Shown piece after piece: positions 30,415 to 49,848 of a DNA stretch of 64,000 nt (within the stretch, counting starts at the first letter, position 1; each line of letters opens with the position of its first letter). The notes below the pieces were generated by a model. The model worked only from the letters and a program-made list of their open reading frames with translations, made no database searches and was not told the DNA's origin. This DNA is from a virus. The stretch spans positions 28,737 to 92,736 of IMG/VR virus record IMGVR_UViG_3300009601_000004. One strand, given 5' to 3'. A program made the translations under genes and the position numbers.

Positions 30415-31298
30415 AACGCGCAGGCTCCAAAGGTGGGCCCACCACACAAACACAAGCCAAGTTCCGTGCCCAGTTCGGCAAGTACCTCGCGGACCAAGGG
30501 CTGTCCGACGCAACAGTCAAGCAGTACGTGGGGCGTGGCGCGGCTTGTCTGCGCTCGCGTCAGACGCCAGCGCAATGGCTGCAGTCTAAGGTGGGTAAGG
30601 GGGCACCTCGCGGGACCGTGCTGGGGTACCGTAGTGCAGCGCAGCACCTGCACGCCTTCCTGTCCATTGTGAAGCCTAGCATCGCAGGAGAGCCCCCTAA
30701 GGTCGACATGAAGCGTGTCGTCAAGAAGCGGCAGCTTCGGCTGAACAGTAGTCTTGATCCCGAACGCCTCAAGATGTACATAGATGCCGTGCTCGCCGAT
30801 AAGGTCATCTCACCCGAAGCGCGCGCCATCCTGCTGCTTTTGCCCTTCACGGGTTTGCGCGTTTCGGAGGCTTGCAACCTGCGACCGTCGCACCTGGTCA
30901 AGCAGGGCAATGTGCGCTGCATTCACGTAGCCGACGGCAAAGGGAACAAGGAGCGCTTCGTCCCCATGGGCAAGCGTGCCAAGCAGATCACTGACCACTA
31001 CCAGCGCAAACACCGCTTGCAGGGGCCTTGGCTCTTTCCGAGTCCGATGTCCCCCTCCCGACCCATCACACCCAACAACGTGCGTGTTCACCACCGCCGC
31101 ATCCGCAGAGGTTTAGGGCCGGACTGGGAGTCTGTCCTTGTCCATGACCTACGGCATACGTTCGCGTCGCTGCTCATCGAGCGTGGTGTGCCCCTGCCGG
31201 CCGTCAAAGACCTGCTAGGGCATGAGAGCGTGAAGACCACCGAGATCTACATCCACAGCAACGCGAGCGCACTCAAAAAGTACGTCGACCAGCTCTGA
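30411..31298 (+). CDS. Tyrosine recombinase (phage integrase family)
   Basis: The 295-residue protein has a SAM-like N-terminal DNA-binding domain and a C-terminal catalytic domain. The active-site residues are all present: Arg in GLRVSEACN near 149, Lys in DGKGNKERF near 180, HDLRHT near 244-249, His in GHESVKTTE near 269 and Tyr in EIYIH near 280. Length is typical of XerC/D-like integrases. It may integrate the element or resolve genome dimers. No obvious attachment-site repeat flanks it, and the next gene is convergent after 5 bp. Confidence 0.88.
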   Translation: MKRAGSKGGPTTQTQAKFRAQFGKYLADQGLSDATVKQYVGRGAACLRSRQTPAQWLQSKVGKGAPRGTVLGYRSAAQHLHAFLSIVKPSIAGEPPKVDMKRVVKKRQLRLNSSLDPERLKMYIDAVLADKVISPEARAILLLLPFTGLRVSEACNLRPSHLVKQGNVRCIHVADGKGNKERFVPMGKRAKQITDHYQRKHRLQGPWLFPSPMSPSRPITPNNVRVHHRRIRRGLGPDWESVLVHDLRHTFASLLIERGVPLPAVKDLLGHESVKTTEIYIHSNASALKKYVDQL

Positions 31299-33436: not shown

Positions 33437-34360
33437 TCATCTCCGGGTCATGTATAGAGCGATGGCGTAGGCGTCCCAAGTGTGTCGATGCTTGCGCAGA
33501 CGTCGGGGTAGCCGTGGGTTGTTTTTGTCGTTGACCAGGTCCTGCAGTTCACGCCAGACACGCGAATCGCGGCCTACTTCGGTAGGTGTCAGCCCCAGCA
33601 AAGAAGAGGCCCAAGTGCGTTTGTCTATGACGGTTCGGCCTTGGCTTGCCCCATCGGAAGCAATGGCGTTGACGACGTCGGCACTCCGCTTGTCCTTGCC
33701 GCCGCCCCACGTCTCTTCCACGACCAGGCGATAGGTGCCTTGCGCGAGCTGTGCGGCTCGTGCGGCGATGTGCTCGCCGATACCGGCCATCGTATCGAAC
33801 GTCAGTACCTCACCGCTCCCTGCGGCTTCTAGCAGCCCTCGACCGCCTTTACTGTCTTCGTCCCAAGACCAGCCCCAAGCACCCAAGATGCGCCTGCCAT
33901 CTGCCGTGATGAGGACGGCGGCACCGCTGGGGCCGTCGTCGACTGCGAGCACTGGGTTAGCGTGGCGCGGGTTGCGCTTGACCGTCGGTGTGCTGCGGGC
34001 CAGCAGCTCGATACGACCCGTCAAGGTGGGACCGTTGAGTGACTGATAGCCTTTCGTGATGAGCTGGTTGCTGTACGACGCAGCGACACCAGAGGCGTGC
34101 GAGACGGTGATGTGATGTGGGCCCACAGAAGGAAGTCCACGAGGCAGCTCAACGACCAGAGCCTGCGCCTGCTGGTCTTGCGCCACTCCTACCACTTTCA
34201 TGCGCACTGCACGCCCGACAAGGTCAGGCAGAGCGGACAGCGCGAGTGTGACGTGGTCCGCAGTGACATGGGGATGTGCAGGCGCCACGGCGCGTAGCAC
34301 AGCTCGCCGTGACTTAGGGGACAGCTTGACCGCGGTGTATTCGCGACGACGCTTTGTCAT
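33437..34360 (-). CDS. 2H phosphoesterase-like domain fused to a RuvC-like nuclease domain
   Basis: ATG 34360 overlaps the upstream stop and gives 307 residues. Residues 25-95 carry two H-x-T motifs, HVTLAL near 34 and HITVSH near 81, spaced as in 2H phosphoesterases, which open cyclic phosphates or act on RNA ends. A KRNPRHANP linker follows. Residues ~135-307 form an RNase H-fold nuclease with VDDGPSGAAV, VVEETW and HTWDAYAIA, the three-acid pattern of RuvC resolvases. RuvC-type enzymes cut Holliday junctions before packaging. The joining of the two activities is unusual to me. Both halves are inferred from motifs. Confidence 0.65.
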   Translation of the reverse strand: MTKRRREYTAVKLSPKSRRAVLRAVAPAHPHVTADHVTLALSALPDLVGRAVRMKVVGVAQDQQAQALVVELPRGLPSVGPHHITVSHASGVAASYSNQLITKGYQSLNGPTLTGRIELLARSTPTVKRNPRHANPVLAVDDGPSGAAVLITADGRRILGAWGWSWDEDSKGGRGLLEAAGSGEVLTFDTMAGIGEHIAARAAQLAQGTYRLVVEETWGGGKDKRSADVVNAIASDGASQGRTVIDKRTWASSLLGLTPTEVGRDSRVWRELQDLVNDKNNPRLPRRLRKHRHTWDAYAIALYMTRR

Positions 34361-36723
34361 GCGTCGATACCGGAGGCTTGCAGCTGGAAGGCGTGGGGCC
34401 ACTTCGCAATGGTGTCCTCCATCCGCAGCATCTCAGCGTGCTCTTTGCCTGGTAGACGCCGACCGGCCTCTGCGTAGCCCATCATGCGGTCTTCCATCGC
34501 AACGTACTGCCGGTACATCTTCGTAGCCACTGCCATCGTGGGGAGGCCGTCGTTGTCGTCGTTGTCGTTGCTGGCCTGGATGGCCTTCACGAGCTTGCGC
34601 CAGTCCCAGTTTGGGATGCCAAAGACTTCCGCAACGTGCATCAGCGCGGCACCTGTAAGGATGCGCTGCTGCACCTGACCACGCCGGCTCCAGTTGAACC
34701 CGCGCAGCTTGCCATGGATGGGAGCACCCCGCTCGTAGGCGAGTTTGATGCGGTCGTCTGTGATCTCGATGCCGACCTCGGTACCGTCAGGCGCAACCAA
34801 GTTGCCGGACACACCCGAGGCCTCTTTGCGCACGAGGATGTCATCGAGCATGTCGACGGCGGCTTTCAAGTCGGGCCCCGTGGCTTTACCTTGACGCCTC
34901 GCGGCAATCAATAGCTTCAGCTTGCGCAGCTGGATACCGGCTTGACCCCCTGACTCTTCCATGCGTGCTTTGTTGATCTCACGCTGGGTGACTTTGGCCG
35001 CTTGCTTGATCAAGTCGAGCCAGTCCCCTTGCCGGCGGTCGGCACTGTCCGACTTTTTTTGCTCCCGGCGCTCATTGCGACCACCTCGGCCTGTGATCAT
35101 CCACGATGTGGTACCTGCCCGCGAGCCCAAAAAGGCGCGGAAAGCGGCTTTGTACTTTGTCAGGAAGCGGCCTAGCTCGGCAATGGCTGTACGGCGCTGG
35201 TTGACTGTATCCGCCATGTCTGCAGCCTCTTCTGCCATGTCATTCCACATACTGGCGTACTCACGGCGGTACTGCTCTCCGCGCCTCTCCGCTGAAAATG
35301 ACGTGCCTTGGAAGGCCATCGACGCCGTTGAGCTGCTGACGTCACGTATGGACGCTCTAGGTGCCGGCAGGTAGACCTCGTCGTCAGGTGTGATGCGCGG
35401 TGGTAGCGGCTGAGGCTTGCCTAAGACCTTCTCGTACTTGGCTATCAACGCGTCCATCTTCGCGTCAGCAGACGCTTTCCGCGCACCCTGTGTGGCTTTG
35501 AGCCGGTCACGGTGGACCTTGTCACTCGCAGCCTTACTGGCAACCGCCTGTGATAGCCGAGGTACGCGCTGACTCCAGAGAAAGCGGAGAATCTCCTCAC
35601 TGGTGTCCCCTGGGCCAAACCAGCTATTCCAGCCCCCGTAGCCATTCTTCTCGCCTAAGCGCACACCGAACACAGCGGCAACCAAGTCACCGCCAGCGTA
35701 GTTGCTCATCATCTCGCGGGTCTTGCCTCGGCCCTTCCGCCCGTCTTTGTCTACGGTTTTGGCGATGGCGTCAGCCAGCTGTACCATTGTTTTCTTTGCG
35801 GGAGATGCTGGGGCATTCGTCCACAGCAACGGAGGGGTGTTGAGACCCGACATACGCCGCACTAGGAGGTTGACCACCTGACGCGACTCGTCACCTGCAT
35901 CCTCTGTTGTGATGGCAAAGTATGCGCGAGACCTGCCGTCTTTTTTGGGCTTAGCCCACTTGCGCATCTCGATGGTGAAGGGCTGACCCTCCAAGCTGAC
36001 AGGCTCCCCTTCCCAGGCAAAAGCGCGTACTGCGGGGATCAATTCGGGATTCTTCTCGTGGTAGTGGTCATCCGCCACCATTGCGCCTGGTAGAGGTGTT
36101 CCTTCACTCCGCGTGGCTTCAACCACACTCCGCCACTGCATGGCGGGGTACTCGATGCCTTCAATGGGCTTCGGGATGGCCTTCGCGGCGGGTGCCTTCT
36201 TGGCTGCTATGGACTGTAGGTAGTACCCACTACCCACACCTTTCGGCTTTTTCAGCTCGACTTGCAGGCCGCCAGCGTTCACGAGGTCCGTGATCTCTTG
36301 GCGCATTTTAGGTGTGATGCGCTTTACCGTGGTGTGCCCGACCGAACCGCGGTGACTACGCTTCTGCGTCTCACGTACGAGGTCGCCACGCATAAACCCC
36401 CGCTGCTCTGCGTAAGACAAGCGACTGTTGAGGCTCGACAGGCCCCACCGCATATCGGGGTCACCGACACCACGGTGCAGCCGGTGGGCCGCGTCGTTGA
36501 GGATGTACTCCGCGATGGCTTCGGCGTGAGTTGTCTTCGTCTTCTTGGCTGCTACGGCTTCCGCTACTTCGTAGATGGGACCGCCCTTACTTACGAGGGT
36601 CTTGCGGTGCTTCATCATCCAGGTGGCGGTCGAACGTGTCGAGCTGTCCGAGGCCATGATGGCGTGAACACGGTCAAAGATGTGCGTTGCGAGTGACGCG
36701 TTGCTGGGATTCTTACGTCTCAT
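34357..36723 (-). CDS. Large protein of unknown function carrying the shared N-terminal helical module
   Basis: This 788-residue product begins MRRKNPSNAS and then has a helical module (HIFDRVHAIMASDSS, then TATWMMKHR) that recurs in three neighbouring large proteins. A beta-rich section follows (MRKWAKPKKDGRSRAYFAIT). The C-terminal third is charged helices with AALMHVAEVFGIPNWDWRKL. No enzymatic motif was recognised. It is translated in one unit with the 705-residue protein upstream and the 2H-RuvC gene downstream. Size and modular build suggest virion-associated or injected proteins. Confidence 0.55.
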   Translation of the reverse strand: MRRKNPSNASLATHIFDRVHAIMASDSSTRSTATWMMKHRKTLVSKGGPIYEVAEAVAAKKTKTTHAEAIAEYILNDAAHRLHRGVGDPDMRWGLSSLNSRLSYAEQRGFMRGDLVRETQKRSHRGSVGHTTVKRITPKMRQEITDLVNAGGLQVELKKPKGVGSGYYLQSIAAKKAPAAKAIPKPIEGIEYPAMQWRSVVEATRSEGTPLPGAMVADDHYHEKNPELIPAVRAFAWEGEPVSLEGQPFTIEMRKWAKPKKDGRSRAYFAITTEDAGDESRQVVNLLVRRMSGLNTPPLLWTNAPASPAKKTMVQLADAIAKTVDKDGRKGRGKTREMMSNYAGGDLVAAVFGVRLGEKNGYGGWNSWFGPGDTSEEILRFLWSQRVPRLSQAVASKAASDKVHRDRLKATQGARKASADAKMDALIAKYEKVLGKPQPLPPRITPDDEVYLPAPRASIRDVSSSTASMAFQGTSFSAERRGEQYRREYASMWNDMAEEAADMADTVNQRRTAIAELGRFLTKYKAAFRAFLGSRAGTTSWMITGRGGRNERREQKKSDSADRRQGDWLDLIKQAAKVTQREINKARMEESGGQAGIQLRKLKLLIAARRQGKATGPDLKAAVDMLDDILVRKEASGVSGNLVAPDGTEVGIEITDDRIKLAYERGAPIHGKLRGFNWSRRGQVQQRILTGAALMHVAEVFGIPNWDWRKLVKAIQASNDNDDNDGLPTMAVATKMYRQYVAMEDRMMGYAEAGRRLPGKEHAEMLRMEDTIAKWPHAFQLQASGIDA

Positions 36724-38837
36724 TGAGCTTTCCCTGCGAATGTAAGGTACCCGGCGCTACCGCCGACGGTGTGAGCTTCCCCGTGCTTGTACAGTCCGCG
36801 AACCTTCCACACGTATTTTTGGCGACGCTGCTCTGCGTGCTGGCCTGCGAACCACTGACCGCTCACCCCTTCCAATAGGTCCAACTGCAACCCCGGTGCT
36901 AGGTCGCGGATAGTCACACGCGTTTCACTGCCCTTGTTACCGCCGGAAAGGGCCACTAGCTCCAGTGTGGGGTCGCCCGCGTCGCCTGACACGTCTACGA
37001 CCACCCAGAGCTTGCGGCCCCCCTTGAGCTTCACCACGTTGTTTAGCCAGTTGTACAAGTCTGGGTGAGCCTTCGCGCTGTACGGCGCAGGCTTGACCTT
37101 GCCGAGCTTGCTCATGTCGACGTGCTCGACAGGTATGGTGAGACCGCCCACCTTCGCTGTGGTGGTGTGCGTGATGGCTACCCCACGAGCTTCGTGGGCA
37201 AGTGAATGCTCTAGTTCTTCGTTGTAGCTGTCACGCAGCTTTGCCGTCTTGCTCGCATTTGCCTCGCGGGTCGTGGCTGATGCGCGAGTGTAGGCGCGGT
37301 AGCGCAGCTTCTCCAACTTGGCTGTCTGCTTGTCAATGTCATGCCGTACCGCTTTGGACGGTCGCGGGGTGCCCCGCTCGTGCAGAGTGATTCCCTGCCG
37401 ATGTGCCTCGACACGTGCGGACCTGGCTTGCTCAACTGCGTCGGCAAACCCTGGGTCTTTGTACCCCTTTTGAATGACGTCCACAGCAGCTGACATAGCA
37501 GCTTGCAACTGAGCCGGTGTGCGCCCCTTTGAGATGGCTACCGGCTTGCGCTTGGGCTTCTGCGCAGTCCACGTCTTGTACGAGTCCTGCACATCCTCAA
37601 GGGTGTACGAACTGGAGTGGGTGGGCTTCTGGGGCCCCATCATGTAGCCGCCTCGACGCCGCGCGTGCTCCTTTAGGTAGTCAGCTACACTCATGCTCGC
37701 ATAATGCTTCAGTGTCGAGAGCAGGGCTCGCAGGGCTCGCTGCGCGCCAGACCCGAAAGATTGGCTGTACCAGTGCCAGCTGTACGCGCCACGCAATGTG
37801 TAGGCTGCTCGTTTGCCGCCGCCGGAGTTTGTTACCCGCCAACCTTCGGGAAGGTGGCGCTTAACGTCCCGAATGGACGCGACACGACCTTTAGCCTCGG
37901 CATCCGCAAGGGCTTGCTCAACGACCTTAGCTCCGACCTGGCTTTCCGCTAGGAACGCGGTCACTTGCTCTGCGAATAGCTTGTCAGCGAGGGCGTAGGC
38001 TGCGCTATCGCGACGTCCTTTGGCCGCTGCGGCCCGGTCGTCTTGGGCGACTTGGGCGGCGCCGGCTTTCGACGCGACGATACGGGGGTCTCGATACCCA
38101 GCACCCGCAAGCACTTGCTTCCCGATAACGGGCCAAAACTTCCACGAGTTTGCGAGCTTCTGCAGAGATGCCCTGCGGGTCTTTTCCATCGTGTGTTCGA
38201 TCTTCTGGCCCTTGTAGAACAGATCAGCGTCCCAGCGTACCCATGAGCGCTCCCCAACCTTGTTGACCTTGACGGTGACTCGGTCGCGGATGCCGGCGTC
38301 GTCAAGGATGCCATTAAAATAGGCCGTCGCGTCTTTGACGTTGGTACCTACCTCGGAACCGTCACTCTCCTTGCTCCCGGTAAGTACACTCTTCGAGGTC
38401 TGTGGCTGCAGAACGCGCAGAATGGTTTGGTTCGCAGCTTCCCAGCCTGCGGGGTACTTCAGTCCTTCGGCCGACATCAGATGCCGCACAAGCTCAAAGC
38501 CGTAGATGCTCGCCGCCATGGCACGCATGGAGCCAGTGAGCCCTTGCCCCTCTAGGTAGAACTTGTTCACCAGTGTGGCCGCACGCTCAACTTGGTCCAG
38601 CAACGGCGTGTCCTTGCTCCGCAACCCAGCAAACCAATCAGGTACCTCCGCAGCCGGCGGTAGCTCGTCGTCGAGCCCACGTTTAGCAGCGACCACAGAC
38701 GCGGCCTCTGTGAAGATGCCAGCAATCAACGCAGCGCGGTTGCGCTCCATGAAGGCGGCGGTTGCCTGGCCCTCGCGGGTCGCCTGCAGGTATGCGTGCG
38801 TTGCTGCGTAGAGACGGGTTGGTAGTGAGATGGCCAT
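36720..38837 (-). CDS. Large protein of unknown function with the shared N-terminal module
   Basis: The first gene of a minus-strand operon; 705 residues. The N-terminus RLYAATHAYLQATREGQ, then TAAFMERNRAAL and VVAAKRG, aligns with the module of three other large proteins. The middle contains a small domain (SWVRWDADLFYKGQKIEHT) and a Trp-rich strand unit (YTLRGAYSWHWYSQSFGSG). The C-terminus is an alpha/beta domain. The promoter element CCGCTAGACTG lies 45 nt upstream. No catalytic motif was seen. Confidence 0.55.
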   Translation of the reverse strand: MAISLPTRLYAATHAYLQATREGQATAAFMERNRAALIAGIFTEAASVVAAKRGLDDELPPAAEVPDWFAGLRSKDTPLLDQVERAATLVNKFYLEGQGLTGSMRAMAASIYGFELVRHLMSAEGLKYPAGWEAANQTILRVLQPQTSKSVLTGSKESDGSEVGTNVKDATAYFNGILDDAGIRDRVTVKVNKVGERSWVRWDADLFYKGQKIEHTMEKTRRASLQKLANSWKFWPVIGKQVLAGAGYRDPRIVASKAGAAQVAQDDRAAAAKGRRDSAAYALADKLFAEQVTAFLAESQVGAKVVEQALADAEAKGRVASIRDVKRHLPEGWRVTNSGGGKRAAYTLRGAYSWHWYSQSFGSGAQRALRALLSTLKHYASMSVADYLKEHARRRGGYMMGPQKPTHSSSYTLEDVQDSYKTWTAQKPKRKPVAISKGRTPAQLQAAMSAAVDVIQKGYKDPGFADAVEQARSARVEAHRQGITLHERGTPRPSKAVRHDIDKQTAKLEKLRYRAYTRASATTREANASKTAKLRDSYNEELEHSLAHEARGVAITHTTTAKVGGLTIPVEHVDMSKLGKVKPAPYSAKAHPDLYNWLNNVVKLKGGRKLWVVVDVSGDAGDPTLELVALSGGNKGSETRVTIRDLAPGLQLDLLEGVSGQWFAGQHAEQRRQKYVWKVRGLYKHGEAHTVGGSAGYLTFAGKAQ

Positions 38838-38882
38838 CAGTGCGGGCGCTCCCTGGTGTGTCGGGGCCTTTGCGTACCCAGA

Positions 38883-38893
38883 CAGTCTAGCGG
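38883..38893 (-). promoter_or_regulatory. CCGCTAGACTG promoter element (site 2)
   Basis: The minus-strand element lies 45 nt upstream of the start of the 705-residue gene, followed by GGGAG before the ATG. It is identical to the core found before the 57611 and 46972 starts. Confidence 0.6.
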
Positions 38894-38909
38894 CAGGGCA
38901 TCGGAAGTG

Positions 38910-38999
38910 GCATTAACCCGCTGGCGGGTTTGCACCCGCTGGCGGGTTCGGCTATAGTCTTTGTGCCGGTGGGAGTTCCCCCACCATTCTGGAGTTCCC
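38910..38999 (+). promoter_or_regulatory. Tandem-operator promoter cassette, copy 1
   Basis: Two dyads follow each other: AACCCGC-TG-GCGGGTT and, 3 bp on, ACCCGC-TG-GCGGGT. TATAGT (38953-38958) fits a -10 box. A leader hairpin GGTGGGAGTTCCCCCACC (38968-38985) and a GGAG ribosome site follow, 5 nt before the ATG at 39000. The layout suggests a repressor-controlled promoter with a structured leader. Confidence 0.7.
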
Positions 39000-39221
39000 A
39001 TGACAACCGAAGCAATCGCCCAAGCAATCACCGCACAAATGAGCCCAACAGACATCGCAAACTTTACCCCTCAAAATTGGAGGGACGGCATCAGCGCCAT
39101 GCTCGTGGATGGCTGGGAGGGCGCTGACCTTGACGGCGTCTTGGATGCCATCGAGGACGACATCAACGATAGTGGTGACAACGACGCGGACGACTTCGCA
39201 GACAACTGCTGGGAAGGGTAG
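39000..39221 (+). CDS. Small acidic protein with a duplicated C-terminal tail
   Basis: ATG 39000 is set by the cassette's ribosome site; 73 residues. The N-terminus is helical (TEAIAQAITAQMSPTDIANF). The C-terminus is strongly acidic and ends DSGDNDADDFADNCWEG, a tail repeated exactly in the 39805-40044 protein. An acidic tail might mimic DNA or contact a basic partner. Its stop codon abuts the second promoter cassette. Confidence 0.6.
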   Translation: MTTEAIAQAITAQMSPTDIANFTPQNWRDGISAMLVDGWEGADLDGVLDAIEDDINDSGDNDADDFADNCWEG

Positions 39222-39309
39222 CATTAACCCGCTGGCGGGTTTGCACCCGCTGGCGGGTGCGTTAGGTAGATTATGCCGGTGGGAGTTCCCCCACCATTCT
39301 GGAGTTCCC
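39221..39309 (+). promoter_or_regulatory. Tandem-operator promoter cassette, copy 2
   Basis: The first 38 bp and the last 35 bp are identical to copy 1. Only the roughly 16-bp stretch holding the -10 box differs (TAGATT near 39267 instead of TATAGT), as if promoter strength was tuned while operators and leader were kept. The hairpin is at 39278-39295. Confidence 0.7.
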
Positions 39310-39525
39310 ATGGAAATGCAACAAGTCACAGTTACCATCACGCTCGAAATTCAAGCAGAAGCCCCCGCAGGCATGAGCGAGTCAGACCTCTTGGAGGCCT
39401 GCGAAAACGCGGCAACGTGGGGCACCCTCGCCGACGGGGAAGGCGTGGCATTGTGCTCCACTTCCCACGGACCCTACTTCAGAGGGACAGACGACCCTAC
39501 AATCACCATCGAACTGGGAGATTGA
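39310..39525 (+). CDS. Unknown 71-residue protein
   Basis: It starts at ATG 39310 from the second cassette. The predicted fold is a beta strand (QVTVTITLEIQAEAP), a helix (SESDLLEACENAATW) and more beta strands, similar to small ferredoxin-like domains. It is acidic overall with two Cys and no zinc motif. The function is unknown, but the dedicated cassette suggests it is tightly regulated. Confidence 0.55.
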   Translation: MEMQQVTVTITLEIQAEAPAGMSESDLLEACENAATWGTLADGEGVALCSTSHGPYFRGTDDPTITIELGD

Positions 39526-39804: not shown

Positions 39805-40044
39805 ATGACCCAGCAACCCACACTTACGAGCCGAGTCGCGGCCATGATTACAGCAGGTGCGACCTACCTTGAGGTAGAGAACGCGGTCCATGACATGCTG
39901 ACGGAGCGGTACCCCAACCGTGAAGACATCGAGGAGGAGGCCATGAGGATTGCGACGCGCGAATACGAGAAGGTGCCTGTCGATGACGACGATAGTGGTG
40001 ACAACGACGCGGATGACTTCGCTGACAACTGCTGGGAGGGGTGA
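39805..40044 (+). CDS. Acidic-tail protein, partial paralogue of the 39000 gene
   Basis: ATG 39805 overlaps the TAA of the extended upstream frame; 79 residues. The N-terminal helix (TSRVAAMITAGATYLEVENA) leads to a charged part and then the tail DSGDNDADDFADNCWEG, the same as in the 39000-39221 protein. At the DNA level the tails differ only at synonymous positions, so the tail has been kept by selection since duplication. Confidence 0.6.
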   Translation: MTQQPTLTSRVAAMITAGATYLEVENAVHDMLTERYPNREDIEEEAMRIATREYEKVPVDDDDSGDNDADDFADNCWEG

Positions 40045-40823: not shown

Positions 40824-41336
40824 CTAACCTATGAGGCGCTCTGCCTCTTTGTGCAGATCACGCGGTAGCCGTTCACCATCAACTAGCCACTCTAGGTAGC
40901 TGGCGGGCACGTCGGCTAGGGCCTTGCCTCGGTGCTTGCCGAAGGGCATCACGTACTCCTCGCCTACGCTGGCAAGGAGACGTTCCCTGGCATCGCCAGT
41001 AACGACGCCTCGGTCGATGCGGTCTAGCAGACGGTACACCTCGAAGGCGTATGTTTCATTGCCCATGGCCGCGCGGGTCTTTGCTCCTATGCGCGGGTCA
41101 TCGTGGTACGTCGCCTGGCGGCTGTCACTCTGATTCACCGACGCATCTCGTGTGCTGCGACTTGCCTCGTGCCGCCTTGCTTCACGGCGCTCACGCGCTT
41201 TCGCACGCACAGCTGGCGATGTCTTGTACTCGTGTTGCCCAGTGCCGCCGCAGGAGAAGCAAACGCCCCCTTGCACATGGTGCGCCCAGTTGAGTCGTCC
41301 TGTGCCATCGCACTTGCCGCAAGTCTCACGATACAT
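40824..41336 (-). CDS. DnaJ-type zinc finger plus DUF3820-like domain
   Basis: ATG 41336 overlaps the stop of the modification-fusion gene (ATGA); 170 residues. Residues 5-32 hold CGKCDGTG and CFSCGGTG, two CxxCxGxG repeats of the DnaJ zinc type. The middle is a basic, Ser-rich linker. Residues 120-170 match DUF3820, with MPFGKHRGKALADVPASYLE, a small domain often joined to exonucleases. It is expressed right after the DNA-modification fusion and could help recruit it to DNA or stabilise it; that is inference. Confidence 0.65.
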   Translation of the reverse strand: MYRETCGKCDGTGRLNWAHHVQGGVCFSCGGTGQHEYKTSPAVRAKARERREARRHEASRSTRDASVNQSDSRQATYHDDPRIGAKTRAAMGNETYAFEVYRLLDRIDRGVVTGDARERLLASVGEEYVMPFGKHRGKALADVPASYLEWLVDGERLPRDLHKEAERLIG

Positions 41337-44300
41337 CAGCTCTCCCGTCCGAGTAAATCCCAGCGCGCGGCACCCGCAACGGGTCCGGCCTCCCATCGTA
41401 TTTTGCGGGTCGTGCCTTTGGCGGCTTGTACACTTGCTGCCGATCGAGCGCCTTGCTTGCCACGCTTGCCACCGATGAGGGCGACAGGCCGCAACCCTTG
41501 CGATTTAAGGGCCTTGTAGGTATGGCCCCCTTCGCTCTCTAGGCTGTAGGTCACGAACAACCAAGGGCCGTCGGCGTCCCCTCGCTTGCTTGCAGGTGCC
41601 GCTTGTAGAACGGCGCTCGCAAGCATGGAAGATGCACCCGCGACACTGCCGTCGCTTGCGATGCGTGTCAGCTCTAGGACGTTGCGCTGGTCGAGGCGCT
41701 TCCATGGTGCGGAGGGATGACCTGCAGTCGCGACTGCTACCAAGCGGTCACCCCGGAAGGCACCTAGTGCGTACATGGTGCGGCGAGGCAGTTGCTTGAG
41801 TTGGCTGTGGTGAGCAGCTAAGAAGGCCCTAGCGGCCTCCCGGTCGACAGGTGCTAGGCGTAGCTTCTTACCCGCCTCGCCCACTGCCAGGTAGGTGAGC
41901 ATGTCAGCCATTGAGGCGACAGCTAGCCAGGTAGGAAGGGTCTGGTCGTCGTTGCGGGATGCGTCGTCGCGGGTGCGTCCTGTGTCGTGCTTCTTGCCTC
42001 CGGTGTGGCGATAGATCGGGTCACCGAAGGGCGAACCATCCCACCTGCCAGGGTCGGTCTCCATGGCGAGTTTGAACGCATGGACGGCCACAGAGCGGTC
42101 AAGGGCCTTGTCTGCGTTGAGCCCCATCGTACCGAGCACGGTCTCCATGGCTTCGGTGCTTGTCTCGTCGTCTGTCTTGCCTGCCAAGGCTTCCCACGCC
42201 CACGAGGCTTCGGGCTGTCCCAGCCAGTTCTTTGCAGTGCTTACGAGCTGCGCTGCCTGGTCAGGAAGGTCAGAGGGTAGGCCAGCGGGCCGACTGCGCT
42301 TGGTGGGTGTCTTGGGGCTGTAGCGCTTCCACAGACCAGCTTTCGGGTCGCCTGCAATGACCTCGCGGACCGCTTGACGGGTGACGGCGGGTGTCTCCAG
42401 TGTGTGAGCTTCCGCGCGTATCTCGGTCTCCATTGCCTGATGGAACACCTGATCCATGTACCAGGGCGAGTCGTTGGGGGCGTCGGCCTGCATGAACTCT
42501 GTCGGGTCCGCTGCCATGGCCCTACGCCAAGCCTGTGCAACCTTTCGAGGAGGGTTGTAGGCTTTGACCAGTGCGGAGGCCAGACGGTGCCGTGCGGCCT
42601 TCGTCATCCAGTCGAGATCACTCTCCACCTCGGTGCCGTCCATCGACCCACCGGGCGCCCACCGGGTCTCAGCGACGTCGCGACGCGCGGTATCTTTCGT
42701 CTTCATGTAGGGGCCAGGGTGGTGGCGGTTGCCCACCTTGCCGCGCAGGTAGACGCTATCGAAGTAGACCTCTGCACGTGGGTAGGCTTCGCGCACCATG
42801 GACAGGCGTTCTTGTGCTCCAGGTGCGCCGGGTGCGAGTCCCAGGAAGTGGAACGCATTCGGTGGGCTCTTGCGTACCGCACGCAGAAAGGCGCCCAGTT
42901 CTTCGATGGTGGTCGCGTCCTTCTTGCTGGGGATGCCGGCCACGAGCGTTGCACCACGTAGCTCTTTGCTCGCGGCGTTCCACATCTTGGCTTGGTCCCA
43001 CTTCCCGCCACGCTGCAGAGGTACGATGAGCCGGACGGGGGCAAAGGCCCCCAGTGCCCGCAGCTCGGGTGCGTAGCGGTCCCACAGCTTTACGGTGTGT
43101 GCAGGGTCGGCAACGCGGTCAGGGGCCACCAGGAAGAGACCGGGGGCGTGTGCTGGCCATCTGCTAGCAAGCCGATTGTAGACCCCTAGAACCTCTGGCC
43201 AGTTTGGTGCTTTGGCTGCGTCCCAAGCGGGCCCGGTTGCTGTGAACTCAACCTCCGAGAAAGCACCCGAGTCCACGAAGACAGGGACGGCGCTCGCGAT
43301 GTCGAGCAGTGCACCGACAGAGGCCTTGGTCAGCTCGGTCACAGCAACGCCGACGGCCTGACCCGCAGCACCGAGTGCGGCAATTTCAGCGGATCGAGTC
43401 GCACCACTGGCGAAGTAGACAGGAGGCTGCACGGCCTGCGTGCGTGAGCCGCCCATCCCGCTGTCACCGAGGTTTGAGCATATGGAGAGGTCGCCCAGTG
43501 GGAATAGGCCTTGGTCGGTGCCGGCCGACATCGAGCCGGCTGGCGGTCCCGGTCGACGGCCATCGGCTTGCTGCAGGGCGTTGCGGACGTGAGCGAGTAC
43601 AGCTCTGCCCATGTTCACTGGGATGCCGTTCCCTACTTGCTTGTACTCTTCTGCTTGCCCACCTGCGAAGACGTACCAGGAGGGAACATCTTGGAGCTTT
43701 GCGGCCTCTCTAGGCGTGAGCTGCCGGACCTCGCCTAGCTCTGGCGACAGGGCGCCCTTCTTGCCTTCCGGCTGGTGTCCAGGCTCCACAGTGATGCCGT
43801 AGGGGATTCCCTTGTACATGCTCTTGGTCATGGCCGGTGCCAACCAGCGGCCCACCAGGGCATCACGTTTGCCGGTCGGCCACCAGTTCGCGAAGGCCCC
43901 ACCGTAGTCGATGAACCCCTGCAGCTTCAGACGGTTGCGGCCATCCGTCAGCTCGCGATTGAGGTAGGCGATTGACTTGGGTGTCAGCTCGTCTCGGATG
44001 ACGTCGTTGTCGGCTTGCTCGTAGTTGCTGCCCATCTTGCAACCCCCACACATCCCGTCAAGGTTGCCGATGTTCACACACGAGCTGTACCCGAAGCCCC
44101 CGCAACATCCGTCGTTGAGCCGGTCGAATGCACGGGTATAGACGTTGGCCGATCCGTATGGGATCGATCGAGGGTCCAGACGGGTCGGTCTAGGGCCTGC
44201 TCGAAGGTAAGAGGCCCACGGTGCTCCCTTTGGCCAGAGCACGTAGAAGGCCCGTTCCCGCGTCTGCGGTGTACCGAAACTCGCAGCCTTCAAGACCCAC

Positions 44301-44869
44301 ACGGTCCCCTCGTACCCGGCCTCGTCGGCGAGCGTCTTCCACCAGACATCCCAGTAGGCTGACCACTTGCCAGCGCGGACGGTATTTGGGCTGTTTTCCA
44401 TTACGATAACGCGAGGCTGTCCTTCGCGTGCCCAGCGGATAACTTCGGGAAACAGGTTGCGAGGGTCCAGCGGTCCAAGTTGCCTACCCGCAGTGCTCCA
44501 CCCTTGGCAGGGTGGCCCACCTGTGAGGACATCGAGCCCTCCGCGGGGGATGTCCGGTGTCCACTTCGTTGCGTCGGCCTGCTTTGCTTTGCCTGGCAGC
44601 TGCCTGTCGAGCGTCTCAACCGCGGCGGCGTCGCACTCGACTAGCTCCTGCAGGTCGTAGCCTTCGATGAACCCAGCGAGCGCCAGCAGTCCACCACCAG
44701 CAAAAACGTCGGTCATGGTGTAGCGGTCACTCTTGCGGGGTAGGCGTCGCATGGCCTCGTTGAGCTGCACAAGGACAGGCGCACGATTGCGCACCATCCA
44801 CGCCGCCGTGTCGTTGGGCAGTGCTTTGTGCAGAGCCTCAAACAGGTCGCTGGTCGTGCGTACCGCCAC
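41336..44869 (-). CDS. Three-part DNA modification fusion: cytosine-C5 methyltransferase, DpdA/TGT-like barrel, Mom/XF1762-like acyltransferase
   Basis: This 1177-residue product starts with the shared helical module (DLFEALHKALPNDTAAWM). Residues ~47-440 form a complete cytosine-C5 methyltransferase: DVFAGGGLLALAGF, GGPPCQGWS near 115, ENSPN near 156, QTRERAF near 200 and QVGNGIPVNMG near 413. Residues ~480-770 look like a TIM barrel of the tRNA-guanine transglycosylase/DpdA class, with VDSGAF near 533, VAPDRV, VPLQRGG and AGIPSKKD. A helical linker follows. Residues ~1000-1130 resemble the XF1762/Mom GNAT fold: AFLAAHHSQLKQLPRR, LELTRIASDG and FVTYSLESEGGHTYK. Each class modifies nucleic-acid bases. 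The first call is firm; the others rest on motif order. Confidence 0.72.
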   Translation of the reverse strand: MAVRTTSDLFEALHKALPNDTAAWMVRNRAPVLVQLNEAMRRLPRKSDRYTMTDVFAGGGLLALAGFIEGYDLQELVECDAAAVETLDRQLPGKAKQADATKWTPDIPRGGLDVLTGGPPCQGWSTAGRQLGPLDPRNLFPEVIRWAREGQPRVIVMENSPNTVRAGKWSAYWDVWWKTLADEAGYEGTVWVLKAASFGTPQTRERAFYVLWPKGAPWASYLRAGPRPTRLDPRSIPYGSANVYTRAFDRLNDGCCGGFGYSSCVNIGNLDGMCGGCKMGSNYEQADNDVIRDELTPKSIAYLNRELTDGRNRLKLQGFIDYGGAFANWWPTGKRDALVGRWLAPAMTKSMYKGIPYGITVEPGHQPEGKKGALSPELGEVRQLTPREAAKLQDVPSWYVFAGGQAEEYKQVGNGIPVNMGRAVLAHVRNALQQADGRRPGPPAGSMSAGTDQGLFPLGDLSICSNLGDSGMGGSRTQAVQPPVYFASGATRSAEIAALGAAGQAVGVAVTELTKASVGALLDIASAVPVFVDSGAFSEVEFTATGPAWDAAKAPNWPEVLGVYNRLASRWPAHAPGLFLVAPDRVADPAHTVKLWDRYAPELRALGAFAPVRLIVPLQRGGKWDQAKMWNAASKELRGATLVAGIPSKKDATTIEELGAFLRAVRKSPPNAFHFLGLAPGAPGAQERLSMVREAYPRAEVYFDSVYLRGKVGNRHHPGPYMKTKDTARRDVAETRWAPGGSMDGTEVESDLDWMTKAARHRLASALVKAYNPPRKVAQAWRRAMAADPTEFMQADAPNDSPWYMDQVFHQAMETEIRAEAHTLETPAVTRQAVREVIAGDPKAGLWKRYSPKTPTKRSRPAGLPSDLPDQAAQLVSTAKNWLGQPEASWAWEALAGKTDDETSTEAMETVLGTMGLNADKALDRSVAVHAFKLAMETDPGRWDGSPFGDPIYRHTGGKKHDTGRTRDDASRNDDQTLPTWLAVASMADMLTYLAVGEAGKKLRLAPVDREAARAFLAAHHSQLKQLPRRTMYALGAFRGDRLVAVATAGHPSAPWKRLDQRNVLELTRIASDGSVAGASSMLASAVLQAAPASKRGDADGPWLFVTYSLESEGGHTYKALKSQGLRPVALIGGKRGKQGARSAASVQAAKGTTRKIRWEAGPVAGAARWDLLGRES

Positions 44870-44872
44870 GCT

Positions 44873-46972
44873 CTACCCCTTCTTCGCGGCTTTAAGCGTC
44901 GGGTGGCCGGTCTCGTGTGGACGTCCACCACCGATGCGGTCGCTTGTCCGAATCCACGCCGTGTTGCCTCGTCCTGTCTTGGCGATTGAGACACTGCCCC
45001 GCACGTAAGCGTCTCCTACCTTTTTCCAGTTCGCCTTTTCCGCTTTGGCCGCGAGCGCTGCACGCTTGGGCTCGACGTGACCAAAGTAAGGCGACAGATC
45101 TATACGCACACCTGTAGCAGCTCGAACACCTTGCCACGCTCGACTGTGCATGACAGACTCTCGGTCTTTGATGCCCGAACCCCCTAACATCTGATGGAGC
45201 TGGAAAGCGAGGGACGCGAAAAGCGTGTACTCGTTGGAGATCTCTAGGGCCTGGTCGTACTGGTCGCCGTCTCTGGGGATGGTGAGCTTGCGCTCTTTGA
45301 ACCACTTGCGGTTGATGGCCTCTTCGACGATGTCAACCGCGAAGTCGCGCGCTTCGTCCTCTTCCCCCGCATACCAGCTAGCGGTCTCTTCCTCCTCTAC
45401 GGCCGCAAGCACAACCTCCTGCAACTCCTTCCCCGTGGGGTCCTTCCAAGACTCCTCCGCATTGCCGGCAGAGACGCCAAAGATGGCAGCAACGTACATG
45501 GCAACCAGGAAGTTCTGCATCTCCTCTGCACCTGGGGCGTCGATGTCGTCCGTCAGCACATCGCCGTCAGACTCGGCTACCATCTTCTTGTAGTAGGCCA
45601 CGACTGTTGGGATGCCTTGAGCACCGGCTTTGCCGCAGGCTGTGCGGACGGTGTTGTACCAGTCCTGCGGCGTCTTGTGGAGGCCCTTGACGGCGCCAGA
45701 GCGCAAGATCTGGCCAAAGGCGAGCCAGTCGAGTGCAGCCGCTTCGCGAATCAGCGTGAACGAGCCGAACGCATCCTTGGGCTCTGCGTTGAAGTTGCGA
45801 CTACTGAAGCCCATGATCTTCGCATCGTATGCGTTGGTGGCCAGATACTTCGAGGCTTCCCCAACGAGCAGCACAGCACCATAGCCCCCCTCGAAAGCTC
45901 CCATGAGATGCAGTGGTGCCTTATCCCCTGCGTGACGTCGACCACTCCCACTCCAGTCACCTAGAGCCTGTCCACGCTGTGGCTTCGCTTTGGGGGAGGG
46001 CTTCACCTTGGCGCGCTTGGCGTTGACAGCATCTGCGGTCTTGTTGAACTCTGCCATGACCTTATGAGACTCGACCTGCATCCAAAGTGCCGTATCTCGC
46101 GTAGCTGGGTTGGCCTGGAGCACGGCGTAGACTGCATTGAAGAGTTGGACACCTGTGACGCCTGCTCGTGTGGTCGCGGGTGCTTTAACTCTCGCTGGTG
46201 CCTTTTGTGCGGTGTACACGCCGCTCTGATCTACCAGCCACTGGATAGCTTGGTTCTTTGGCGGGAAGGCCTGCGCTGCACGGCTCTGATACTGCTTGTC
46301 CACAAACATGAAGTCGGCTTTAGTGGGCGCGCTAGCTCCCGCTGGTCGGCGTGCCTCCCAGCGTTCTGCCCCAGACATAACGCCACCCTTGATGTGGTCT
46401 GCTGTGCCTATGAACCGCCGACGCCGCCGATAGTCAGTGAGGTAGACGTCACCTTGCTTGGTCAGTTCTGCCCCATAGGTTTCGCCGGCCTGACTAGGCC
46501 CGCCCTTGGGTGTCATTGTGTAGGACCCAGGCTTGACAGCTCCCGTGGCTTTCGTCACTGCTGCTGTAGCGACTGCGGTGCCTGGCCCACTCGCCACAGT
46601 GCCGCCCGTGACCGCGTGCCGCTTGATCAGTCGGAGGACGTTGGCCACCGCTTGCTGCGGCTTGCTGTCAATCGCCCACTTACGCTCGGCTTTCGGCATC
46701 TTGCCGTCAATGAAGACGTGCTGATTTTGCTTCCAATGGGGGAGACCCACAGCCTTATGGTCGCCCCAGAAGCTGTGAATGAAGCCGCCCGCTACGCTTA
46801 CCTTAGCGCCACCTGGGACCGTGTCAAAGTAGTATTCAGTGCCACCCAGCGGGTCTACCTCCGCACGGTAGGGCACGCCCAGGCTAGCCACACCATTTGC
46901 AAGCGCTATAGTTAGCGCTATCTGCAGTTGTTTGCGGTCCTTCTCGGTTGCTCGGTACAGACGTTCGGCCAT
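44873..46972 (-). CDS. Large modular protein of unknown function with the shared helical module
   Basis: ATG 46972 (MAERLYRATEK) is preferred because AAGGA lies 8 nt upstream; about 699 residues. Several small domains follow one another. The helical module VQLFNAVYAVLQANPATRD, then ALWM, is internal here (near residue 275) rather than N-terminal. Residues 330-580 are alpha-helical and acidic (AAVEEEETASWYAGEEDEAR). A beta module (NWKKVGDAYVRGSVSIAKTG) lies at the C-terminus. It leads the operon containing the DNA-modification fusion and has the promoter element upstream. No catalytic signature was seen. Confidence 0.55.
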   Translation of the reverse strand: MAERLYRATEKDRKQLQIALTIALANGVASLGVPYRAEVDPLGGTEYYFDTVPGGAKVSVAGGFIHSFWGDHKAVGLPHWKQNQHVFIDGKMPKAERKWAIDSKPQQAVANVLRLIKRHAVTGGTVASGPGTAVATAAVTKATGAVKPGSYTMTPKGGPSQAGETYGAELTKQGDVYLTDYRRRRRFIGTADHIKGGVMSGAERWEARRPAGASAPTKADFMFVDKQYQSRAAQAFPPKNQAIQWLVDQSGVYTAQKAPARVKAPATTRAGVTGVQLFNAVYAVLQANPATRDTALWMQVESHKVMAEFNKTADAVNAKRAKVKPSPKAKPQRGQALGDWSGSGRRHAGDKAPLHLMGAFEGGYGAVLLVGEASKYLATNAYDAKIMGFSSRNFNAEPKDAFGSFTLIREAAALDWLAFGQILRSGAVKGLHKTPQDWYNTVRTACGKAGAQGIPTVVAYYKKMVAESDGDVLTDDIDAPGAEEMQNFLVAMYVAAIFGVSAGNAEESWKDPTGKELQEVVLAAVEEEETASWYAGEEDEARDFAVDIVEEAINRKWFKERKLTIPRDGDQYDQALEISNEYTLFASLAFQLHQMLGGSGIKDRESVMHSRAWQGVRAATGVRIDLSPYFGHVEPKRAALAAKAEKANWKKVGDAYVRGSVSIAKTGRGNTAWIRTSDRIGGGRPHETGHPTLKAAKKG

Positions 46973-46993
46973 GTGTTCCATCCTTCGTATCCG

Positions 46994-47014: not shown

Positions 47015-49669
47015 TCATCTGGCACGCTTGAGTGCAGCGCCAAGGTCGCGGAGGGTTACCAGAATTGGCCGACCGTTCTTATCTAGTCGCAATTCGTGCC
47101 CCAAACGTCCACCAACACGCGAAGCGAAAGTAGCAGACACCGCAGAGGACACGTCACCATCAAGCAGCGCTATGGCCTGCTCTACCGTGCTTTCCCCCTC
47201 GTGTACACGTTCACCCCCCATGACAGCCTCGACTTCGATGCGCTTGCGTTGAAGCATCTCGGTGATGTGCTCGTCAACCGTGCCGCGTGCCAGCAGGTGC
47301 GTGAAGGTCGTGCGGTCAGTCTGGCCGATACGGTGGATACGGTCCTCGCCCTGCTCCATCCATGAAGGGTTCCACCACTGCTCGACGAACAGCATGTCAG
47401 AGGCAGCGGTCAATGTGATGCCTTGGTAGCCGGCCTTGGTCAGGACGATGACGTCGCGCTCTCCCGCTTGGAAGGCCTTCACGCGCTCATTGCGCTTCTT
47501 TGCCGACACAGCCCCGTCGAAGTATGTCCAGTTAGCACCGAGCTTGTCCAGACCTGCACAGATGCCCTTGAGGACCGCTTGGTGCCACACAAACACAACG
47601 AGCGGCCCAGCTTCTACCGCTTGCCTGTCTGCAATCCACTGCAGTGCAGGGGCTACCTTCGCTTCTCCGATGAAGCGCCACAGAGACATGATGGTGTTGC
47701 GTGAAGCGTGTTGATTGAATGCGCTTTCGCTGTTGCCGGCGCGCACGGCAGCAACAGCCGCCTGAGCCGGGAGGATGCCATCCCCGACTAGGTGATGGAA
47801 GTGGGCCACCGACGCCTTGAGTGCCCGCTCCTTGGCGACGCCGAGCATGTACTCCGCACCTTTGTCCGCAGCCCCATCGTATTTTTTGCGAACGGTGTCA
47901 GGGAGGTTGAACCACAGTGGTACCCTGGTTTTGTCCGGCAGCTCTCCGAGTACCTCGGACTTGCGGCGACGTACCATGTGGTAGCGCAGACGATGCCGCA
48001 ACTCTGCATTGAGGTCCCCCCCGGCATCGTCCACGAAGGTGCGCAGCTCTGTACGTCCGCGCTTTGCTCGTTTTTCCACGATGCGTTGACGGAGGTTGCG
48101 ATACCGGTGGTTGAAGTCGTCGCGGGTCGGGAACTCTTCACGGTCGATGATGTGCAATGGATGCCACATCTCGCTAGTTTTATTCTCGATGACGGTACCG
48201 GACAGACCAATGCAGTAGGGCACAGATTGACCGATGGCCTTGAACGCTTGCGACCGTTTGGCCTGGGGGTTCTTTGCCATGTGGATTTCATCACCGATGA
48301 CTGTCTGCACGCCCTCAAAAAGAAGGTCTTGCGCCAGCGGGGCAAGCAAGTCCCAGCTCACCACCCACACGCGCCGGTCGTTGGCCGGTGGCAGTTCTGC
48401 GGCAGCGCTCCCGATGACAACGGGGTCGAACCAAGGTGCAAATAGCTTGATCTCGTCGACCCAGTTGTGTGTCACCGAGCCCGGTGCAATCACGAGAGCA
48501 GGCAAGAGCTGACCATGCCCGTGCAACAGCGTTGCAATCGCCTGTATGGTCTTGCCGAGCCCCATGGCGTCCGCGATGAGCCCACGATAGCCACGGGCGG
48601 CCAAGAAGGCTACACCGATGCTCTGATACTCCCGCAGCACCAGACCGGGGGGGAGCGGCACATTACGCTCCACAGCTCGTGCCCACTGCCGAATGTCTGG
48701 GTCGGCAATCTCGGCAAACGTACCCGCGGCAGACAGCAGCGCGAGGTCTCGCCGGGGTTCGGCTGCGCTGTCCGTGCAGATGGCTAAACGAATCGCGAGA
48801 GCCGAAGCAAGATTACGACGTTCAAGCTGACGCGTAACGCGCAACACCTGACGACCGTCGAAGCTCGTGTAGTGCGCTCCCTTGTCGTGGTAGTCGATGG
48901 CACCTGGCAGGGTGCGCCGCCAGTCGCCGACCTCCCCTGCACCCTCACCTACGAGCAGCGCAATGCGGTCCGGCTGCTCGCCGCCGCCCTCTAGCCACTG
49001 CCAACGCACGAGGGTCTCCCCCTTGCCAGGACCGTCCCAAGCGATGACATGCCCCTTGTCCATGCCGGGCCGGACCTTGTGCGCGAGCAGCTGGGCCACG
49101 ACGGGTAGGCAGCGGTCGAAGTAGGTGGCGTCTCCTCTGTCCTTGCTGCTGGACATCCGCTGCATCGCCCGTGTGAAGCCTTCCGCCTCCTTGTACAGCT
49201 CGACACTGACGCCACAAGCGGCGGCGCCGTCGGCGATGCGCTGGGCTTCAATGGCATCAAGTGCGTACTCTTCTGCTCGCTCCTCTTTGAGTGCTCCAGT
49301 CCACAGGGGCAGTAGCAGAGCCAGCGCACGCGACAGAATGGGGCGCTTCGCTTTGGCCAGTGCCTCAATGATGCGCGGAACGTCGGCAAGGTCGACCTCT
49401 GCGTACCATAGGCCTTGAACTTGTCGCCACAGACCACACCCAGGCACCGCATGGGTGTGGTCTTCGAGCGTGCCAATGTCTAGGCCGATGGCCCCGCAAA
49501 ACTGTTTCAGCTGGCCACTGAAGCCGAAACGGGCCGTCTCAGGACCGCCGCACCCCATGCCCCGGTCATCCCGCCATCCATCGTTCCAAGCGTACCAGCC
49601 GTCAGGCACCACGGTACCGTGCATCGGAGGCACTACAGTGGGTGTCTGTTCACTCACGCGAGCCACCAT
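47015..49669 (-). CDS. SNF2/HepA-like SF2 helicase
   Basis: The start at ATG 49669 (MVARVSEQ) is likely but its ribosome site is weak; 884 residues. The N-terminal 330 residues are of unknown type. The ATPase has DAMGLGKTIQ near 365, GDEIHMAKNP near 458 and LSGTVIENK. The second lobe has YQGITLTAASDML and the motif VI stretch QGEDRIHRIGQTDR near 775, as in SMARCAL1/HepA proteins. These remodel DNA or displace proteins from it. It ends the 51459-47015 operon. Confidence 0.85.
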   Translation of the reverse strand: MVARVSEQTPTVVPPMHGTVVPDGWYAWNDGWRDDRGMGCGGPETARFGFSGQLKQFCGAIGLDIGTLEDHTHAVPGCGLWRQVQGLWYAEVDLADVPRIIEALAKAKRPILSRALALLLPLWTGALKEERAEEYALDAIEAQRIADGAAACGVSVELYKEAEGFTRAMQRMSSSKDRGDATYFDRCLPVVAQLLAHKVRPGMDKGHVIAWDGPGKGETLVRWQWLEGGGEQPDRIALLVGEGAGEVGDWRRTLPGAIDYHDKGAHYTSFDGRQVLRVTRQLERRNLASALAIRLAICTDSAAEPRRDLALLSAAGTFAEIADPDIRQWARAVERNVPLPPGLVLREYQSIGVAFLAARGYRGLIADAMGLGKTIQAIATLLHGHGQLLPALVIAPGSVTHNWVDEIKLFAPWFDPVVIGSAAAELPPANDRRVWVVSWDLLAPLAQDLLFEGVQTVIGDEIHMAKNPQAKRSQAFKAIGQSVPYCIGLSGTVIENKTSEMWHPLHIIDREEFPTRDDFNHRYRNLRQRIVEKRAKRGRTELRTFVDDAGGDLNAELRHRLRYHMVRRRKSEVLGELPDKTRVPLWFNLPDTVRKKYDGAADKGAEYMLGVAKERALKASVAHFHHLVGDGILPAQAAVAAVRAGNSESAFNQHASRNTIMSLWRFIGEAKVAPALQWIADRQAVEAGPLVVFVWHQAVLKGICAGLDKLGANWTYFDGAVSAKKRNERVKAFQAGERDVIVLTKAGYQGITLTAASDMLFVEQWWNPSWMEQGEDRIHRIGQTDRTTFTHLLARGTVDEHITEMLQRKRIEVEAVMGGERVHEGESTVEQAIALLDGDVSSAVSATFASRVGGRLGHELRLDKNGRPILVTLRDLGAALKRAR

Positions 49670-49848
49670 TTCCAAGTATCCCACTTAGAATCCACGGTGT
49701 GCGACACGTAGCCCAGCCCCTCCGCAGCGAGTAGCTCTGTCAGCACTAGTGCGGGGCTGTAGTAGAGCTTGTCGGCCACAGCGGTAGCCGTCGCAGGCTC
49801 GATGTCTGCGAGGGCGTTGATGATCTTTTCGATGGGGTCGGCGTGCAT
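49654..49848 (-). CDS. Small winged-helix-like protein
   Basis: The 64-residue product has helices (DPIEKIINALADIEP, TATAVADKLYYSP) then a wing-like strand with aromatic residues, as in short DNA-binding winged helices. It overlaps the helicase start by about 16 nt. Function inferred from pattern only. Confidence 0.5.
   Translation of the reverse strand: MHADPIEKIINALADIEPATATAVADKLYYSPALVLTELLAAEGLGYVSHTVDSKWDTWKWWLA

Follow-up and report, generated by a model that had tools for sequence, protein, structure and literature searches.

Which reactions would a viral protein carry out that combines three base-modifying folds in a single chain? This question is raised by a gene at positions 41336–44869 (minus strand) of a 64,000-nucleotide stretch, hereafter the window, that comprises bases 28737–92736 of the 92,736-base IMG/VR virus record IMGVR_UViG_3300009601_000004. 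Its 1177-residue product fuses a C5-cytosine methyltransferase, a DpdA/TGT-like barrel and an XF1762/Mom-like GNAT acyltransferase. From domain matches and predicted folds we read it as a DNA-base hypermodification enzyme that a phage-like virus encodes as a single chain and in which the activities are coupled, and we give this reading a probability of about one half. We take DNA as the substrate, since it is the target of the three nearest functional relatives. The three domain calls had already been made in an initial annotation of the DNA letters, and our profile comparisons and structure models support them.

The gene is one frame of 1177 codons without interruption. It starts with GTG, 3 nt past the stop codon of the gene upstream, and a ribosome-site-like AAGGGG stretch precedes this start. 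GC content and GC content at third codon positions (GC3) are alike in all domains, the latter ranging from 0.63 to 0.72 within domains. A chimera or assembly artefact was hence rejected, given the even GC3 and the occurrence of the same domain partners on unrelated contigs. With the frame open throughout and each domain verified separately, the presence of three base-modifying folds in one chain is confirmed. Among the records examined, all three were fused in one chain only in the window, and a comparison of the whole fusion protein with viral contigs recovered no relative. A linker between barrel and GNAT domain (residues 844–978, 41936–42340; like all domains of the protein on the minus strand) had no family match and no convincing similarity to other window proteins.

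The methyltransferase domain spans residues 47–441 (43547–44731). This part (METHYLTRANSFERASE) matched PF00145 over residues 51–426 (E 3.9e-42). In alignments with PDB sequences, which covered the PPCQ, EN and motif X regions, PPC121Q, E158NS and QVGN414GIP paired with HaeIII and HhaI, motif VI reading ENS and not ENV. The full-length Pfam DNA_methylase match, the PC motif with Cys121, the ENV-type glutamate and motif X bear out that the motifs are complete and in order. By its sequence, the domain is a complete C5-cytosine methyltransferase of the S-adenosylmethionine (SAM) type, for which methyl transfer is predicted. A phage C5-methyltransferase fold also serves as a handle for hypermodification in the carboxymethyltransferase CmoX, which requires Arg350 at the position of HhaI Asn304 (PMC12783734). 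In the window protein, in contrast, N414 sits at HhaI N304, which rules out carboxymethylation of the CmoX type and lets us expect ordinary SAM methylation. The variable/target-recognition region of the domain also contains a Cys-rich stretch, CCGGFGYSSC...CGGC (residues ~254–275, about 44045–44110), possibly metal-binding, that is absent from the methyltransferase of the related record L067.

The barrel with its helical tail occupies residues 478–843 (42341–43438). Pfam, PHROGs, tblastn and blastn against phage records gave no match for this region, and its relatives were collected via the XF1762 domain, as direct searches found none. Entry to the family was provided by a 2205-residue protein (L006) in which one stretch shows 41% identity (E 1e-8). 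Among the matches listed, the family comprises at least 64 distinct viral clusters and 15 bacterial clusters, many of them in giant polyvalent proteins. When a 28-member family profile was compared with 15 phage DpdA proteins by hhalign, the probability was 96.6% at an E of 6.6e-10, the latter from a single comparison, whereas all controls, namely one reversed and ten column-shuffled templates as well as the XF1762 alignment, remained below a probability of 1. The suspected relationship to DpdA is thus borne out. VDSGAF (532), VPLQRGG (616) and AGIPSKKD (644), which had been read as a transglycosylase-type pattern, are present, kept across 27 aligned relatives and arranged in the same order as in phage DpdA. 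D533, S534, G535, D584, D588, H674 and G677 were found in 28 of 28 sequences, Q619 in 26 and D704 in 25. A permissive profile alignment with DpdA was collinear across all motifs. With the DNA-guanine transglycosylase of Enterobacteria phage 9g (gp03) as reference, DSGAF, LDGIGDP, FH, HGFG and CDSSS pair with DSGAF, APDRVADP, LQRG, HFLG and FDSV of the window protein, and D72, D114, H196 and D215 fall on D533, D584, H674 and D704. Histidine 196 of 9g is missing in DpdA2 (PMC6884629); its counterpart H674 is kept in all 28 sequences. AlphaFold2 modeled the domain as a TIM barrel with a local predicted confidence (pLDDT) of 90–98. In a viral library, Foldseek ranked a polyvalent-type protein first (E 1e-16), with several phage queuine tRNA-ribosyltransferases among the top ten.

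The barrel nevertheless is not DpdA proper. In a quick tree, a long, starred branch split 79 barrel rows from four DpdA rows, leaving the barrels as a separate, well-supported sister clade. Of the earlier assignment to a DpdA/TGT-like barrel, the relationship to DpdA thus stands and membership of DpdA itself does not. By sequence profiles mainly, together with the barrel fold, we place the domain in the DpdA/TGT superfamily as a new DpdA-related family. It further differs from phage DpdA in being fused to a C5-methyltransferase and a GNAT domain, in a record where no preQ0 operon was found, and in giving no match in single-sequence tblastn searches of phage records.

The C-terminal domain (ACYLTRANSFERASE) comprises residues 979–1177 (41339–41935). 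Its residues 1005–1160 exceed the cut-off of NCBIfam NF045478 for XF1762 (53.9 versus 50 bits), and it matched the Mom-like phrog_1384 (E 1.8e-12); the Pfam Mom profile barely exceeds its cut-off if the domain is scanned by itself. The AlphaFold2 model had a mean pLDDT of 76, and its best fold match in the PDB, above many GNATs, was phage Mu Mom S124A (8bv8, E 1e-7), a variant described as inactive according to the PDB title. With the family cut-off passed and Mom as top match of the predicted fold, the call of a Mom/XF1762-like GNAT holds. By hhalign, R1069 and S1081 fall on Mom R111 and the catalytic S124, a weak pairing with a probability of 19 against the single Mu Mom sequence. H1021, R1069, S1081 and E1113 are invariant in 23 of 23 aligned sequences. 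Unlike Mu Mom, the window GNAT is part of a larger chain, and its sequence identity to Mu Mom is low.

Taken together, the three domains most likely hypermodify DNA, with base exchange by the barrel followed by acylation and with C5 methylation alongside. The methyltransferase would methylate cytosines at its own recognition site. The barrel, with Asp704 and also Asp533, would excise a base, guanine being the most likely one, and replace it with a free base of the 7-deazaguanine type that the host probably makes. The Mom-like domain would next attach a small acyl group to an exocyclic amine, for which the base just inserted offers the most economical site. As an outcome, viral DNA would be shielded from several nucleases at once; since related viruses keep the three as neighbouring genes, the fusion protein probably is a compact machine that disguises viral DNA. 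More tentatively, and with odds somewhat short of even, a non-canonical base inserted by the barrel and acylated by the Mom-like GNAT, guided or complemented by C5 methylation from the same chain, might represent a new hypermodification class with an undescribed acylated base, which in many viruses would involve, within polyvalent proteins, a pyrophosphatase and a PP-loop enzyme that resembles PAPS reductase.

The strongest argument for one common task is that the same three activities have re-associated repeatedly. Barrel, XF1762/Mom and C5-methylase form a recurrent module. They occur close together in the window and in L067, L093 and L101, and likewise in records L069 and L073. XF1762/Mom was found nearby in 12 of the at least 64 viral barrel clusters (same chain in 7), a C5-methyltransferase in 10, InPase in 18 and PAPS in 8, these being post hoc counts from flanks of unequal length and related sequences. 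In the barrel tree, members partnered by XF1762 make up 11 of 35 in the clade of the window and 2 of 44 outside (Fisher p 0.002), those partnered by a C5-methyltransferase 9 of 35 and 2 of 44 (p 0.009); within this 35-member clade, both kinds of partner are spread over several separate branches. When whole records were searched, the barrel turned up in 6 of 12 records with long-form XF1762 versus 0 of 9 with short solo forms, PAPS_reduct in 9 of 12 (one below cut-off) versus 0 of 9, and a C5-methyltransferase in 5 of 12 versus 2 of 9. Most long-form XF1762 proteins of viral contigs are polyvalent. Their domain order varies: C39 peptidase, PAPS_reduct, InPase, XF1762 and barrel in L006; InPase, PAPS_reduct, barrel and XF1762 in L063; XF1762 and barrel in L068 and L069; InPase, XF1762 and PAPS_reduct in L073, with the barrel in a gene nearby. 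In L067, XF1762 is followed by the C5-methyltransferase in one chain and the barrel is a separate gene upstream. Adjacent genes encode a PAPS-like protein, a C5-methyltransferase and a barrel in L116, and a barrel and a C5-methyltransferase in L118 and L125.

The same domain arrangements can also be read as a plain tool kit, in which one chain would carry out three chemically uncoupled modifications, namely 5-methylcytosine, replacement of guanine by a 7-deazaguanine-type base and acylated adenine (momylation), each defeating different nucleases. Known Mom targets adenine N6 (PMC7824862) and known DpdA targets guanine (PMC6884629), the jumbo phage PA5oct has Mom enzymes beside a deazaguanine system, and L101 keeps the Mom-like protein, the C5-methyltransferase and the barrel as separate consecutive genes. 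The shuffled domain orders are also compatible with such a tool kit. Nevertheless, XF1762 and the barrel are repeatedly found fused, with either of them first, which hints at closer coupling. We slightly favour coupled modification and regard three independent ones as somewhat unlikely.

Besides the post hoc nature of the association counts, several results weigh against coupled hypermodification. XF1762 and the barrel are not obligatory partners, because only about half of the records with long-form XF1762 carry a barrel. Structure prediction of the middle domain gave the anticipated TIM barrel, but the PDB fold search returned generic TIM barrels and did not single out TGT; in addition, the profile of the barrel family had no significant match in the PDB, and E. 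coli TGT alone scored poorly against the family profile. QueC and PTPS/QueD had no match over the whole 92.7-kb record, which is possibly incomplete. This supports the earlier remark that genes for 7-deazaguanine synthesis are not visible, and a phage-encoded preQ0 route was rejected for lack of either match. A PP-loop protein (PAPS_reduct), though a common partner in relatives, was not matched in the record either. InPase was likewise not found there, a weak negative since control genomes gave none as well.

The lack of donor-base genes in the record and the tRNA targets of TGT relatives would also fit a barrel acting on RNA (tRNA), or a barrel and a GNAT that are accessory binding modules of what in effect is a DNA methyltransferase. 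Here, the conserved Asp and Gln motif residues of the barrel and the invariant Ser and Arg matching Mom argue for retained catalysis, and the partner domains are DNA enzymes. We consider this the least probable explanation, and a very unlikely one.

The barrel had not been labelled before as a domain of polyvalent proteins. We observed it inside viral proteins of 4000–5500 residues (L013, L138, L139, L142, L146 and others), often with InPase. The polyvalent proteins described from phages and conjugative elements are multi-domain chains (PMC5512222), and relatives of the window protein share with them InPase and other domains, whereas the window protein holds base-modifying domains only; text searches of that work found no mention of Mom, XF1762, TGT or queuine. 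Packaging and injection have been predicted for proteins of this type and especially for InPase domains (PMC5512222). By analogy, and given the portal or terminase genes beside some relatives, some polyvalent versions of barrel and XF1762 may travel in the virion, although for the virus of the window this is a guess. The fusion protein could then be an early-infection effector that is packaged with the genome and acts on infecting or host DNA, not on replicating viral DNA. Barrel and XF1762 indeed occur in proteins of 1000–5500 residues with InPase, C39 peptidase and PAPS_reduct, in L005 and L009 their neighbours encode a portal or terminase, and the window gene shares a module with three neighbouring genes (see below). 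The window protein, however, lacks the InPase and peptidase domains, and its record has neither a portal match nor a known packaging signal. We thus regard a packaged effector as improbable; it would be compatible with DNA modification all the same. A MuF domain in L005/L006 was apparent by eye, but Pfam made no call.

Each of the three parts is known singly. What is new is that the barrel family occurs in phage polyvalent proteins and is linked to C5-methylases, and that all three parts are present in one chain, which brings together DNA-modifying folds that have been studied apart until now. In bacteria, GNAT/TGT pairs, occasionally fused, are found in BRC loci and were proposed as a DNA-modification apparatus (PMC12839542, January 2026). 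These HerA/FtsK-centred, BREX-related loci resemble our system, by description, in pairing a GNAT with a TGT, and the window protein could be their phage counterpart. They differ in belonging to bacterial defence with PglZ, DUF6079 and STAND genes, and a C5-methyltransferase in the chain is not mentioned. Pfam and PHROG scans of the large proteins of the window, made without a targeted search, did not name the full set of HerA/FtsK, PglZ, DUF6079 and STAND, with one weak STAND match below cut-off. The DpdA-related family, which is large, unannotated and frequent in giant phage proteins and also occurs on Pseudomonas contigs and a plasmid, travels with Mom-type acyltransferases and C5-methylases. 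Our reading makes a testable prediction, a new modified nucleoside, and a single chain of this kind would offer a compact means to label DNA, or to protect it from nucleases, with one protein.

Outside viruses, solo barrel genes were observed in Pseudomonas and other bacteria (L028–L043), one of them on a contig labelled plasmid (L031); the Pseudomonas members conserve a TADANWLRSR motif. In a Salinibacterium metagenome-assembled genome (L029:1-2126), an XF1762 gene immediately precedes a barrel gene; here, the pair occurs in a bacterial or prophage form. PAPS-reductase-like PP-loop genes lie beside or near the barrel gene in L116, L017, L018 and L030, as in the polyvalent fusions, and such proteins may supply or activate a donor group.

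Around the fusion gene, a same-strand run comprises an SNF2-type helicase (47015–49684, minus strand; PF00176 E 2e-28, phrog_62 E 9.3e-92), a 702-residue protein without Pfam or PHROG match (44873–46981), the fusion gene and a gene for a protein with Zn-finger CxxC pairs and a DUF3820-type domain (40824–41336; PF12843 E 2.6e-7). The listed ATG of the latter at 41396 implies a 61-nt overlap with the fusion gene, whereas a start at the internal ATG (41336) reduces the overlap to a single base (TGATG), the usual arrangement for coupling, and is the more credible one by sequence. On this overlap, translational coupling to the fusion gene, as suggested by the initial annotation, is plausible. Four large neighbouring genes, all on the minus strand, share a module lF.A.ha.L..TAaWM.rNR: those at 34357–36723 and 36720–38837 (788 and 705 residues, without significant family match), the fusion gene and the 702-residue gene. 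The module is N-terminal in three and internal in the 702-residue protein; in the fusion protein it is helical-looking and about 45–50 residues long (44735–44869). In leave-one-out searches with hidden Markov models over the 827 open reading frames of the record, every member came out as the top non-training match, with E of 1.2e-6, 2.4e-8 and 9.2e-8 for the three neighbours and 0.013 for the fusion gene (runner-up 0.94). The module could serve as a tag for sorting, packaging or dimerisation.

The scans made of the 92.7-kb record gave no convincing terminase or capsid family, though helicases, a polymerase and an endolysin are present; genes for the virion either diverge strongly or are missing. 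The family A DNA polymerase is fused to a uracil-DNA-glycosylase-type domain (PF03167 and PF00476; 9627–12785, minus strand). Two small open reading frames (39109–39221 and 39900–40044, plus strand) encode the identical terminal peptide SGDNDADDFADNCWEG, and a stretch encoding CRWEFPHHSGVPM is repeated in region 38837–39341; these repeats reflect either a local duplication of recent date or a leader element that is repeated. Finally, the window contains a tyrosine integrase (30411–31298, plus strand) and the record, elsewhere, a D12-class adenine methyltransferase (L003:978-1958), so that the virus is possibly temperate, with an additional modification enzyme.

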